A stretch of DNA of 64,000 nt, taken from positions 1 to 64,000 of the forward strand of contig NZ_BAMW01000082.1 in NCBI RefSeq assembly GCF_000963945.1, read 5' to 3'. Source of the stretch: Acetobacter indonesiensis. GTDB taxonomy: Bacteria; Pseudomonadota; Alphaproteobacteria; Acetobacterales; Acetobacteraceae. Within the stretch, counting starts at the first letter, position 1, and every line of letters begins with the position of its first letter. Below the pieces are notes generated by a model. That model did no database searches, had not been told where the DNA came from, and saw only the letters and a program-made list of their open reading frames with translations. The position numbers and the translations under genes are program-made. This document shows, in pieces, positions 59,701 through 64,000 of the stretch.

Positions 59701-60681
59701 TTACTGGAAGTTTCCACCGCCATTATAAAACTGCATGCCAACAGTATGAATTTTGTTGATAAATTCCTGTATTTTTGGATTTTTCTTAAGGTTTTCGGTG
59801 TAGATGACGTCTATGTAGATAGGGTCAAGTTCTTCGCTTGTTTTTAATTTGTAAATGACACCCTCTTCAACAGCATTTTTTGAAACACTTTCACAGGAGA
59901 CAAAGACGCAGTTGAAGCGGACGCCCTGTTCAAGACACATGGCGAGTGAATCAACAACAATAAATGAATTGTGAAAGTCGTAGCTTTTTTTTCCGCTGTG
60001 AGTTGTCAGATATTTATGTTTTTTTGTATCAAGTTCTATCGTTTTCATATCCATTATTTCAGAGATTGAGTAAGTTTTTTCACGAGAAATAGATTTATTC
60101 TTTGTGGTTGTGTAAAAACCAACTGATGTTTTGGTAATGTTTTTCAAGATCATATTTTCAGCACTTTTGTTGTTTCTGGCAAAACCAACAAAAATGACGT
60201 TATCTGTCGGATTATTTCTGGTCAGGGTATCATCACTGAATACCTTAACTCTGACAGCCTTATTTTCTTTCATGAATTCGCTGATGCAGTTGGAAACCCA
60301 CGCATCAAGGAAAAAATCACTGGTTATTACAGTAATTTCATCAAAGGCATATTCTCCAATTTTTTTCTCATACGATATTATATCTGAGAAAGATTTATTT
60401 ATATTCTCGTAGTACTTTTCTCCTATTTCAGTCAGGAAAAGTTTATTTCCTATTTTTTTAACTAAAGAAACATTCAGTTTCTTTTCAAGATTACCGATGC
60501 TGCGGGAAACAGTAGACGCATAAACGCTCAGTTCCTCTGCCGCACCACTCAGGCTTCCATGTCGGCAAAAGCTCAGAAAGATCTCCCGCTCTGATGGGCT
60601 AGAAGAAGATTTATCATTAACAACCAATGTATTAATCCGCCCCATTTTGCGTAAATGCAAATTCATTTTGCAACAGTGCAT
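59701..60681 (-). CDS. LysR-type regulator-like protein
   Basis: This 326-residue protein has a LysR-like helix-turn-helix in its first 90 residues (LSFCRHGSLSGAAEELSVYA, then STVSRSIGNLEKKLN) and a substrate-binding-like domain rich in Lys, Asn and Ile. By eye its DNA is far more AT-rich than the neighbouring genes, suggesting recent transfer or relaxed evolution. Several in-frame ATG codons near the start leave the exact N-terminus open. It is divergent from the large repeat protein gene and may regulate it. Confidence 0.72.
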   Translation of the reverse strand: MHCCKMNLHLRKMGRINTLVVNDKSSSSPSEREIFLSFCRHGSLSGAAEELSVYASTVSRSIGNLEKKLNVSLVKKIGNKLFLTEIGEKYYENINKSFSDIISYEKKIGEYAFDEITVITSDFFLDAWVSNCISEFMKENKAVRVKVFSDDTLTRNNPTDNVIFVGFARNNKSAENMILKNITKTSVGFYTTTKNKSISREKTYSISEIMDMKTIELDTKKHKYLTTHSGKKSYDFHNSFIVVDSLAMCLEQGVRFNCVFVSCESVSKNAVEEGVIYKLKTSEELDPIYIDVIYTENLKKNPKIQEFINKIHTVGMQFYNGGGNFQ

Positions 60682-61303
60682 GTTTTCTTATGAGAAACAA
60701 CCATCTAGTGTCTGTCAATAGGCAAAGGTTTTATGGATTAACTTGGTATTAACCATTTGATAGTTCCATATTAACTTTTAGTATTTAGTTGCGGTCGCTA
60801 AGAAAGGTTTGAGGATATGAATTTGGCATGTGGAGCAGTGTTTTTTTACTTTTGCGATGTTAAATAATGTCTGAATTAATATGGTCTATGGGTAACTTTG
60901 TAAGTGCCCAACCTCCATATGACATTCAGGATAGTTCGTTTTTTCGGTCTGTTTTTTTTGTGTTTTTTCTCGTCGCAAGGGGGCACGCGCCTCATGCTTT
61001 TCCGGGTGTGCCTGTTTCATTAGCGTCTGATCTGGCTTGTTCGAAAAAGAGATATTCTTCCGGTTTATATTCCAGGCATTTCTTGCTCGATGATTGGCGA
61101 AGCGCTGCTTCGTTTTTCAATGAGGCAGCAGGGCAGTTTTCTGCGGTTTTTCTAAAAAATATGTCGAGCATCTCGTTGGGTGTGCAGCAACCGGTGCTCG
61201 ACATTTACGGGCGATTTTTAGGCCATGCGGAATGTCACGCCTCGCCCGATAAACGCCAAAAAAACTTCCAGTTCGCGCGTAGCGACAGCGTAAGGGGTAA
61301 CAA
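60682..61303. other. Leader region of the repeat protein gene
   Basis: About 620 bases between divergent genes, AT-rich on the left. It carries a strong stem-loop at 61161-61204 and an AAGGGG ribosome binding site before 61304. A 146-codon open frame (60867-61307) ends at the ATGA start of the next gene, but it does not resemble a protein. Confidence 0.5.
61161..61204 (+). promoter_or_regulatory. Stem-loop in the leader of the repeat protein gene
   Basis: ATGTCGAGCA and TGCTCGACAT are perfect 10-base arms. Inside, GTTG and CAAC form a second short stem. It lies 100 bases upstream of the start codon and no T run follows, so a regulatory leader or protein-binding site is more likely than a terminator. 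Confidence 0.55.
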
Positions 61304-64000
61304 ATGACAACAAATGTGAGTAGCACTGTTACTGTCAGTTCAGGAGTGACCTCCACAGGTCTGAATGTAACTGGCACTAACGATGTATGGGTTCAGGGTG
61401 GCGGCACCCTAACATCCTCAACAATTGGCACAACGGGCCAATTCATTATTCAGGCCAATGGTGTTGCCAAGAATATTACGGTCACTTCAGCGAATATGGC
61501 TGAAGATGCTGGTGGCGTTATCTCATCGGTTTATCTTTATGGGTCCGGAAATGGGCAGATTAACGGGACAGCCTATGATCTCGTAAATGCTGCTACAGTT
61601 GGCGGTGGTGCGCTTTCGATAAATGCTGGTGCAAATGTCAGCGGCCTTTATCTGAGTGGCGGGGCTATTAATGTTAATAGCGGTGCCACGATTAGTAATT
61701 TTGTGATCAGCAATAACAATACGCATTCTGCAGCTTACGCATTTGCCCAAATCTCCGGCGGTGCGTCTGTAAACGGTCTTTCTGTGACAGGCTGGGCGCA
61801 GGCTACTGTTTCGCAGGGTGCTACAGTTAGCAATGTTTCTCTGGCTGTCGATGGTGGCTTTGCAGCGACAGTGATTGCTGAATCCGGCGCAACGCTGGTG
61901 AATGCAACGGTTGCTTCTGGTACAACCCTAAGTGGTGGTTCAGGCGTAACACTGTCCGGCCTTATTACTGACCGCGGAACTGTATCTGGCGGCACCCTGG
62001 CTTCTGGTACAAAGCTGGATGCAAGCACCGGGTCAGCGTCTGATATTACCATTGGAAGCGGAGCGTCTGCCTTCGTCGATAATGGCGGAGATATACGGAA
62101 TACTGCGGTTCAGAGCGGTGGTCTGCTTCAGGCCGGGCAGGACGGTAGCTACAGTGGGAACACGGTTGTCTCAGCCGGTGGTTCTGTTCTGAACGGCGAA
62201 GTCAAAGGCACTTTGGTTCTTTCTAACGGTGCTTCGGCAACGGGTCTGTGGGTTGACGATGGTGGCTTTGTTTCCGCCAATAATGTCGCTCTCTCCGGCA
62301 TTACGCATGCACGGGCTGGTACGGTTTCCGGCGGCGTCATTAATTCCGGTGCAACCATTGCTGTCGATGGTTCTGGTGTCACAAGCGGCCTTACGGTTAA
62401 CAGCGGTGGTGTAGAAACTCTTGCTGATCAGGGTGTAAGCGATTCAACAACGCTGAATTCTGGCGCAACGCTGAACGGTAATGGCGGAACCCTCACGGGC
62501 ACGACCACAGTAAATTCTGGCGCAACGCTTTCTGCGACGTCCTCCACAATCATGTCCGGTTCCGTGAACGACGCCGGTAAGGTTATTGGTGGCACTGTTG
62601 TTGCCGGCGCTAACCTGAACGTGCTTGCGACAGGCGTTGCCAGCAACACCATTGCATCCAGTGGTTCTATCTGGGTTTCTGGCGGTAAAGCCTTTGATAT
62701 TACTGTTACAGGCTCAGGCGCTGGTGGTTCTGCGACAGCCGGTGGCGTTGTAAGCGGGCTGACACTGACGTCTAACGGTCAGTATATTGCAGCGCAGGGC
62801 GGCACGGTAAATGGTGGCACTGTTTCTGGGCCTGAGGCCTATCTGTTTGCCTCTTCTGGCGGCACGGTAAACGGTCTCACTGTCTCCAGCAGTGGCCAGA
62901 TTATTGTTGACTCCGGTTCTGTTGTTACGTCGAACACAGTCGGGAATGGTGGCCATTATTTTGTATTGGGTGGCACGCTTGATAGCAGCACAACCAACGT
63001 ATTTACGTCTGGTGCTGACATCAAGATTACCTCTAACAGCACTCTTGGCACGCACGGTGCGGTAAACAACTTCACTGTTAATAGTGGTGTTGGTCTGCGT
63101 ATTCAGGACAGTGCAACGGGTTCAAATGTTACCGTTGGTAACGGTGGCACGGAACGTGTTTTTGATGGTGGCACAACCACCAACGGCACCGTTTTGTCTG
63201 GTGGCACGCTGACAGTTTCTGCGAATGGTGCAGCCGTTAGCACGTTGGTTCAGTCCGGTGGGCAGTTGCTTGCTAGTGCAGGTTCTGTTGCTGGTAATAC
63301 GACGGTCAATTCTGGCGGTCTGCTTTCAGCATCTTCCACGGTTGGTCTGTCCGGCACGATTACGGATAACGGAACGGTATCCGGCGGTATTGTTGTCTCT
63401 GGTGCTCAGCTGAATGTTGGTTCTACCGGTGTTGCAGCAAATGTTAACGTTTCCGGTGGCAGTGCTGTTCTGAACGGCGGCAAAGGCTACGGATTGGTTG
63501 TGCAGAGCGGTAGCGCAACAATTTGGGCCCAAAGCGGCGCTGTGGTGTCTGGCACACTCGTTACAAATGACGGCAACCTGACTGTTCAGGAAGGCGCTAC
63601 GGCGTTTGGCACAATCCTGTCTGGTACCAACGTTGTTGTTACCAGCGGCGTGTCCAACGTGCATGAAGGCCTCGTTATCGGTAGCGGTGGCGTAACCCAT
63701 GATACGGTTCTTGCAAATGTTGGTGCTTTTACCTGGGTTTGCAGTAACGGTGTAGAATACAACACCATCGTAAACTCTGGTGCGACTGACAATCTGGTTG
63801 GCGGTAGCTCCTTTGGTACCCAGATTAACTCCGGTGCTTTTCAGGCTGTTCTGTCAGGCAGTGTAGCATCTGGCACGATTGTTTCCTCTGGTGCGACTTT
63901 GAACGCGGATAACGGAACGGTTATCGGTTCAACGGTTTACAGCGGTGGCGTCATGTCCATGACTGGCAATTCCAGTGCCAGCGACCTGACTGTTTACGGC
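61304..64000 (+). CDS. Large beta-solenoid repeat surface protein, N-terminal part (cut by window edge)
   Basis: The frame is open from ATG 61304 (AAGGGG upstream) to the edge, at least 899 residues without a stop. It consists almost wholly of short Gly/Ser/Thr/Val/Asn-rich repeats such as TVNSGATLS, TVSGGTLASGT and VNGLTVSSSGQ, about 19-20 residues per unit. This is the AIDA-type passenger pattern that folds as a beta-solenoid. No signal peptide is evident at the N-terminus (MTTNVSSTVTVSSGVTSTG). The C-terminus is outside the window, so an autotransporter barrel, a Hint domain or a type I secretion end are all open. A cell-surface or secreted role is inferred. Confidence 0.8.
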   Translation, partial: MTTNVSSTVTVSSGVTSTGLNVTGTNDVWVQGGGTLTSSTIGTTGQFIIQANGVAKNITVTSANMAEDAGGVISSVYLYGSGNGQINGTAYDLVNAATVGGGALSINAGANVSGLYLSGGAINVNSGATISNFVISNNNTHSAAYAFAQISGGASVNGLSVTGWAQATVSQGATVSNVSLAVDGGFAATVIAESGATLVNATVASGTTLSGGSGVTLSGLITDRGTVSGGTLASGTKLDASTGSASDITIGSGASAFVDNGGDIRNTAVQSGGLLQAGQDGSYSGNTVVSAGGSVLNGEVKGTLVLSNGASATGLWVDDGGFVSANNVALSGITHARAGTVSGGVINSGATIAVDGSGVTSGLTVNSGGVETLADQGVSDSTTLNSGATLNGNGGTLTGTTTVNSGATLSATSSTIMSGSVNDAGKVIGGTVVAGANLNVLATGVASNTIASSGSIWVSGGKAFDITVTGSGAGGSATAGGVVSGLTLTSNGQYIAAQGGTVNGGTVSGPEAYLFASSGGTVNGLTVSSSGQIIVDSGSVVTSNTVGNGGHYFVLGGTLDSSTTNVFTSGADIKITSNSTLGTHGAVNNFTVNSGVGLRIQDSATGSNVTVGNGGTERVFDGGTTTNGTVLSGGTLTVSANGAAVSTLVQSGGQLLASAGSVAGNTTVNSGGLLSASSTVGLSGTITDNGTVSGGIVVSGAQLNVGSTGVAANVNVSGGSAVLNGGKGYGLVVQSGSATIWAQSGAVVSGTLVTNDGNLTVQEGATAFGTILSGTNVVVTSGVSNVHEGLVIGSGGVTHDTVLANVGAFTWVCSNGVEYNTIVNSGATDNLVGGSSFGTQINSGAFQAVLSGSVASGTIVSSGATLNADNGTVIGSTVYSGGVMSMTGNSSASDLTVYG

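Follow-up and report, generated by a model that had tools for sequence, protein, structure and literature searches.

An AIDA-type repeat protein of Acetobacter indonesiensis that lacks a signal peptide and ends in a Hint domain and a conserved C-terminal domain

How does a very large repeat protein that starts directly with its repeats leave the cell? This question is raised by the last gene of a 64,000-nucleotide window of Acetobacter indonesiensis DNA (bases 1-64000 of contig NZ_BAMW01000082.1, which is 101,352 bases long and belongs to a draft genome of 3.41 Mb and 181 contigs). An earlier note, made from the window alone, had described a very large repeat protein without a visible signal peptide, with beta-solenoid repeats from the N-terminus and an unclear export route. 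The open frame from 61304 runs uninterrupted to the window end at 64000, and beyond this edge the gene is complete on its contig (61304-66652), encoding a protein of 1782 amino acids that we refer to as the adhesin. Its features are as follows.

61304..64000, plus strand: repeat-protein gene, 5' half (899 codons), with AIDA/TibA-like strand-loop-strand repeats and without signal peptide
61292..61297, plus strand: ribosome-binding-site-like AAGGGG ahead of the ATG, read by eye
64000 to about 65500, plus strand: repeats past the window edge (same contig, G000:C100, same numbering)
65594-66019, plus strand: Hint_2, with the Cys1432 codon at 65597, and T1514, E1516 and H1517
ending at 66649, plus strand: conserved C-terminal domain, followed by the stop codon at 66650-66652

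The composition of the adhesin (repeats, Hint_2, a conserved C-terminal domain and no signal peptide) is established. At its start, an in-frame TAA at 61298 lies two codons upstream of the ATG, so a longer frame is excluded, and with it the conventional signal peptide that was sought in one. The N-terminus itself has no hydrophobic segment: the best 10-residue mean hydropathy within the first 45 residues is 0.77, while two exported neighbours that served as controls reach 2.3, as judged by a simple hydropathy score rather than a dedicated predictor. By the upstream stop and the low hydropathy, the adhesin lacks the Sec signal peptide of AIDA-type autotransporters. We also observed that a 146-amino-acid open reading frame (ORF; 60867-61307) shares four bases with the start of the gene.

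Roughly 1400 N-terminal residues are made up of AIDA/TibA-type beta-helix repeats with a 19-residue period. From residue 1 to about 1400, the residues G, S, T, N, A and V account for 63-81% of every 100 positions, after which the composition shifts, and glycine autocorrelation peaks at lag 19 (0.157 versus a maximum of 0.107 in 200 shuffles). The part of the protein within the window matches the NCBIfam profiles AIDA-I (1.3e-21) and TIGR04415 (5.7e-7; 29.5 bits, cut-off 30), while the whole protein reaches 47.2 bits with TIGR04415 over 15 stretches. The NCBIfam Ag43 profile matches the repeats as well, and Pfam AIDA scores 22.7 on the whole protein, below its cut-off of 27. When the window part was compared with the PDB, the best match was TibA (4q1q, 3.5e-15), followed by Ag43 proteins and an AIDA-I family adhesin. 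The repeats thus correspond to the strand-loop-strand beta-helix passenger of AIDA-type autotransporters, in agreement with the beta-solenoid proposed earlier.

Reading the gene to its end at 66652 showed that the passenger is followed by Hint_2 (PF13403; amino acids 1431-1572, 1e-30, 107.5 bits against a curated cut-off of 28.4), one of three endings guessed in the earlier note. A whole-protein Pfam scan (E up to 1) returned Hint_2 and AIDA only, with nothing past Hint_2 and no autotransporter beta-barrel (PF03797); for the last ~210 residues neither Pfam nor NCBIfam gave a match at E up to 1. The adhesin therefore resembles TibA, AIDA-I and Ag43 (type Va) in its strand-loop-strand beta-helix repeats and in having heptosyltransferase genes in its genome, TibA and AIDA-I being substrates of TibC, yet unlike them it has neither signal peptide nor beta-barrel and carries a Hint domain and a conserved C-terminal domain. 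The earlier note was right on the repeats, the missing signal peptide and the unclear export route.

We propose, with a probability of roughly 0.5, that the adhesin is an AIDA/TibA passenger minus the autotransporter parts and plus a Hint/export module, and that it is heptosylated, type I exported and Hint-processed. The 1782-amino-acid protein is synthesised without a signal peptide, as its sequence indicates. A heptosyltransferase encoded elsewhere in the genome would then O-heptosylate the beta-helix repeats in the cytosol, and an HlyB/HlyD/TolC system would recognise the ~210-residue C-terminal domain with its fixed-length tail and mediate one-step exit. Cys1432, together with the TxEH motif, would form a thioester with the residue that ends the passenger, whereupon the beta-helix would be either released or transferred to a surface nucleophile. 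The result would be a glycosylated adhesin at the surface or in the matrix, a member of a large paralogous set.

The putative modifying enzymes were identified in the same genome, which has two strong TibC/Aah-type heptosyltransferase genes (BAHT; 618 and 564 bits with TIGR04414, cut-off 200). Both encode four cysteines with a spacing of 3/16/12, equal to that of the iron-finger cysteines of TibC (Cys339/342/358/370), an enzyme type that was defined on autotransporters (PMC4358343). The genome contains a single barrel match, which is marginal, has an internal stop and lies near a contig start; as barrels are nearly absent, the BAHT enzymes seem to need other acceptors. Of the 200 family genomes, 57 carry BAHT above cut-off, and each of these also has a match to the Hint plus C-terminal domain; none of the 45 family genomes without Hint carries BAHT above cut-off. 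Moreover, 21 of the 49 BAHT rows, spread over 15 of 28 genomes, have a listed match to this module no more than 15 kb away where 2.7 would be expected, or 23 of 52 when three fragment rows are added. Descent confounds both the co-occurrence and the linkage counts, as sister species and tandem copies are not independent. BAHT was found in the flanks of 4/18 AIDA-type and 1/59 other Hint loci, for which flank lengths differ.

Individual loci place the two kinds of gene close together. In Acetobacter farinalis a BAHT gene ends directly ahead of a 1756-amino-acid AIDA-Hint gene, and on a conjugative plasmid of Gluconobacter oxydans H24 a BAHT (599 bits, without the strict four-Cys pattern), an AIDA-Hint gene and a helix-turn-helix (HTH) regulator stand in a row, with transposases on both sides. 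One paralog of the adhesin itself (C173b, AIDA-Hint) heads a same-strand array in which an AMP-ligase, a polyketide synthase (PKS), a fatty-acyl-AMP ligase and, last, a BAHT follow.

G000:C173 about 53824-67816 (L130, L034), one strand: C173b array of closely spaced genes, PKS and ligase names by eye, BAHT by profile

This array could represent a cluster for a lipid-modified or lipid-linked adhesin. Taken together, the repeat family, the two BAHT genes, co-occurrence and linkage suggest that the adhesin repeats are likely a substrate of TibC/Aah-type BAHT.

Another element of the proposal is the Hint domain. In the Hint superfamily the active centre has Cys or Ser as residue 1 and a TxxH motif in block B, and both are present in the adhesin as Cys1432 and T1514..H1517. 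In an alignment of 57 relatives (from 78 Hint-bearing relative loci found) with a mean column identity of 60%, Cys2, T84, E86 and H87 (alignment numbering; Cys1432, T1514, E1516 and H1517 in the adhesin) are invariant in 57/57. An AlphaFold model of the A. farinalis relative (L043) had a mean pLDDT (per-residue model confidence) of 85.7. Its residues 1-143 best matched a bacterial intein-like (BIL) domain (2LWY; Z 13.5, root-mean-square deviation (rmsd) 2.2, 119 aligned), with hedgehog (1AT0) lower (Z 10.6, rmsd 2.8, 119 aligned) and inteins also matching; by sequence, the Hint plus C-terminal domain matched 2LWY (0.0027, 40 residues) and, at 0.58, an intein. The C-terminal domain alone from the same relative (model pLDDT 79.3) gave nothing below 0.001 with Foldseek, and the best PDB match in a VIA comparison (Z 6.0, 89 aligned, rmsd 3.1) was no clear relative.

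Like Hedgehog/Hog and BIL proteins, the adhesin thus combines a Hint fold, Cys at position 1, TxxH and a variable N-terminus followed by a conserved Hint-containing C-terminus; unlike them, its C-terminal domain is without clear PDB relative and the terminal His-Asn is missing. In 2008, attention was drawn to a bacterial Hint subgroup that is poorly characterised and sits at the C-terminus of its proteins (PMC2362128).

These observations make N-terminal thioester chemistry at Cys1432 the best-supported reading of the Hint domain, as judged from sequence and model. Alternatively, Hint could be chemically silent and, together with the C-terminal domain, act as no more than a folded module for export and anchoring, in which case the adhesin would stay whole. 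The His-Asn of splicing inteins and BIL type A domains is absent, with an invariant Gly143-Asn144 near the expected end, where C-terminal cleavage could conceivably occur, and in one paralog of the same genome (C161a) Ser replaces Cys with only 40 residues ahead of it. To our knowledge, no experiment has demonstrated that Hint_2 cleaves. Set against this, Cys, Thr, Glu and His are all retained throughout relatives that are on average only 60% identical per column, and we consider a silent Hint unlikely.

The conserved module is widespread. The A. indonesiensis genome holds 16 Hint_2 matches, all above cut-off, of which 13 have Hint and the C-terminal domain in common; another paralog (C104), truncated where its contig begins, has a different end, and two (C176a and C160b) carry a glycosyltransferase after Hint instead of the C-terminal domain.

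L027:5884-10377 and L030:873-5300: two paralogs in which a single chain joins AIDA-like repeats and Hint to a TIGR03087-like glycosyltransferase

Over the C-terminal part, 11 paralogs are 41-53% identical to the adhesin (12 of the 13 genes were aligned, the Ser-bearing C161a being left out), while N-terminal parts vary, being AIDA-like in 7/16 (two of these were the queries). The pattern extends to other genomes, where the N-terminus was AIDA-type in 18 of 77 relatives examined and mostly of other, shorter kinds. A profile of the Hint plus C-terminal domain matched 155/200 family genomes, although weak matches may represent Hint alone, and 44 of 49 genus genomes, with up to 23 matches per genome; the closest relative in these 49 is only 59% identical over the Hint and C-terminal part. 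Plasmid records gave 194 matches, of which 58 cover 80% or more of the query; a protein on a Gluconobacter oxydans 621H plasmid is 58% identical over the Hint and C-terminal part. Phage records gave none. The adhesin is therefore one of the acetic-acid bacterial proteins called 'Hint domain-containing protein' (PF13403, Hint_2), as the 621H protein is; the name carries no function in the records and papers examined, and most of these relatives have other, shorter N-termini.

The layout of stalk, Hint and C-terminal domain is also that of a polymorphic-toxin-like protein in which a pretoxin Hint frees a C-terminal toxin, and weak PT-HINT matches, all below cut-off, were obtained in 3 of 8 paralogs scanned. 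In polymorphic toxins, however, the C-terminal toxin domain after Hint is variable. Here it is the C-terminal domain that is conserved and the N-terminus that varies, the reverse of that arrangement, and a glycosyltransferase takes the place of the C-terminal domain in two paralogs, making a toxin very improbable. We give equally little credence to the idea that the adhesin is a functionless, degraded autotransporter relic: a missing signal peptide and barrel would fit decay, but the 1782-codon frame and the Hint motifs are intact, and open frames of 1444-1757 amino acids with Hint and the C-terminal domain occur in other Acetobacter genomes.

Because the adhesin has neither signal peptide nor barrel, we considered an operon on another contig as an export candidate.

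C152:185359-189078: HlyB-like ABC and HlyD pair of the candidate type I operon

The operon encodes an HlyB-like ABC transporter, HlyD (296.6 bits, cut-off 208.65), a Sel1-repeat protein and a glycosyltransferase; TolC is encoded elsewhere in the genome (292.1 bits, cut-off 225.15). The ABC protein is closest to the TIGR01846 (HlyB) and TIGR03375 (LssB) types. Other ABC transporters of the genome gave 63 TIGR01842 matches, none above cut-off, and the second-best (C175) had no HlyD in its ORF list, HlyD not having been searched genome-wide. The genome contains one RTX match, so few classical cargoes are in sight for the C152 machine. Across the family, an ABC match was present in 65/65 genomes with the strongest matches to the Hint plus C-terminal domain (E up to 1e-59, a line chosen after the lists were seen), in 70 of the 90 remaining Hint-bearing genomes and in 17/45 without Hint, an association confounded by descent. 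The C-terminus also appears to be recognised as a terminus, fitting an uncleaved C-terminal signal: the last residue is Ala in 43/57 relatives versus 103/575 neighbour ORFs (sequences not independent), and the tail extends 11-17 residues past the last invariant Tyr in 57/57.

Type I secreted adhesins of the LapA/RTX type have giant repeats, no signal peptide and a conserved C-terminus. The adhesin shares these properties and the presence of HlyB-like, HlyD and TolC proteins in the genome; unlike them, it is without RTX match and the type I secretion system (T1SS) genes are not adjacent. A substrate gene commonly adjoins its T1SS genes, although this is not obligatory. The earlier note had suggested looking for secretion genes nearby; none was recognised by eye in the ORF lists of 50000-80000, only some of which were profiled, and the candidate system lies on another contig, C152.

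Several observations weigh against the proposed pathway. The descent that confounds the BAHT and ABC counts is one; the marginal barrel match and the draft state of the genome (181 contigs) are others, as are 98 of the 155 Hint-bearing genomes without BAHT above cut-off (expected if only AIDA-type members need BAHT), the lack of a BAHT beside the adhesin gene itself, and a hydropathy of at least 2.0 near the N-terminus in 5/90 family proteins. For export, the C152 ABC protein falls below the cut-offs of TIGR01846, TIGR03375 and TIGR01842; the adhesin had no RTX match in the whole-protein Pfam scan; and at 1e-40 no ABC match was obtained in 20 of the 155 Hint-bearing genomes, among which the best Hint match is 3.8e-54. 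Among the neighbour ORFs of 93 Hint loci there were 0 HlyD matches and one ABC match at 32%, and no T1SS gene is annotated in four alphaproteobacterial plasmid contexts of Hint genes. It is thus a real, if somewhat improbable, possibility that export follows another or undescribed route and that the link to HlyB/HlyD reflects the shared ancestry of acetic-acid bacteria, T1SS and Hint genes being physically unlinked in the loci read. Such a route would have to accommodate a position-fixed, Ala-rich C-terminus, the presence of HlyB-like ABC, HlyD and TolC in a genome whose adhesin lacks signal peptide and barrel, and an ABC in every one of the 65 strongest-Hint genomes. We therefore regard type I export through the C-terminal module as the best available reading, with moderate confidence.

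The earlier note had further claimed that near-identical DNA segments make the repeat region prone to recombination. The sequence GGCGGCACGGTAAA does occur twice, at 62798 and 62858 (given earlier as about 62799 and 62859), where shuffles predict 0. The exact repeats, however, are 14 bases long and lie inside 29-nt units that are 86% identical. Since the DNA copies are short and diverged, the claim of recombination is unsupported, and instability of a tandem array was rejected, as Tandem Repeats Finder detected no array.

DNA rearrangement may act at sister Hint genes. In 15 of 17 loci having a particular recombinase cluster, the recombinase lies divergently upstream of the Hint gene, or in two of BAHT-Hint, and 4/4 recombinases scanned match Resolvase (PF00239). 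An inverted pair near TCCTGATTTACGCAA / TTGCGTAAATCAGGA, with up to 3 mismatches per arm, was found in 14 distinct loci: 13 of the pairs span 140-142 bp and the remaining one spans 154 bp, while a single 1.54 Mb shuffle gave none. The pair was not found in the window; two paralogs of the same genome, C160a and C80, have both it and the recombinase.

L113:7152-7291; L076:1522-1662; L081:6844-6984; L082:6843-6983; L083:6957-7097: inverted-repeat segments of ~141 bp, a short way upstream of Hint genes
L029:8091-8230; L038:8257-8396: inverted-repeat segments of paralogs from the same genome

In 9 of the 11 relatives checked, the right arm stops 3-28 bases ahead of the first ATG, the exceptions being L097 and L113. 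Compared with the inner segments of L076, L081, L082 and L083, that of L113 is 85-88% identical only when reversed (57-58% forward, where shuffles give a mean of 57% and a maximum of 65%); that of L042 is 76-82% identical to the same four when reversed. The L042 pair does not adjoin the matched Hint gene, and L042, L090 and L097 lack a recombinase of the cluster. Comparison between species thus shows the segment in either orientation, which is what an invertible switch would give, and on this ground the recombinase-linked ~141-bp segment looks like a phase-variation switch.

A further conceivable scheme is a Hedgehog-like secretion-and-ligation pathway in which type I-exported, heptosylated AIDA-type beta-helices are joined covalently via the Hint thioester to a surface nucleophile, which as part of the same scheme might be a polysaccharide, a hopanoid or a dedicated polyketide lipid. 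This is hinted at by the PKS, the two acyl-AMP-ligase-like genes and the BAHT that share an array with C173b, by the two paralogs fused to glycosyltransferases, and by a Phyllobacterium relative that lies among capsule and polysaccharide genes. We regard both the ligation and the choice of nucleophile as speculative and rather unlikely.

Regulatory genes flank the adhesin gene and several of its relatives.

59701..60681, minus strand: LysR-family regulator, divergent, in an AT-rich stretch; link to the adhesin unproven
L002:6712-7278 (contig 66712-67278): XRE-type HTH gene, starting 60 bp after the adhesin gene

In other genomes, 10 loci have an XRE-type HTH homolog 25-215 bp behind the Hint gene, and two Gluconobacter plasmids likewise carry an HTH or regulator gene after it. 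The AT-rich stretch directly upstream of the adhesin gene (59701-61200, 35-40% GC; 35% in 60001-60600 versus about 53% in the repeat gene) is possibly acquired DNA. A promoter and terminator scan gave counts near the shuffled mean (6 versus 5.4 and 10 versus 7.4).

Among the literature matches listed, which included few subscription papers, we found none that treats AIDA-Hint proteins, Hint together with heptosyltransferases, or invertible switches in acetic-acid bacteria. TibC/Aah-type enzymes here occur in genomes and arrays whose repeat proteins lack signal peptide and barrel. If the proposed pathway is correct, a second export pathway can carry the AIDA beta-helix, and a function would be gained for a module with matches in 155/200 family genomes and up to 23 matches per genus genome. 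Acetic-acid bacteria would then also offer a bacterial setting for testing whether Hint attaches proteins to surface molecules in the manner of hedgehog. Under the ligation scheme, variable cargo on a conserved tail, in some cases under an invertible switch, would amount to a general system of phase-variable surface display.

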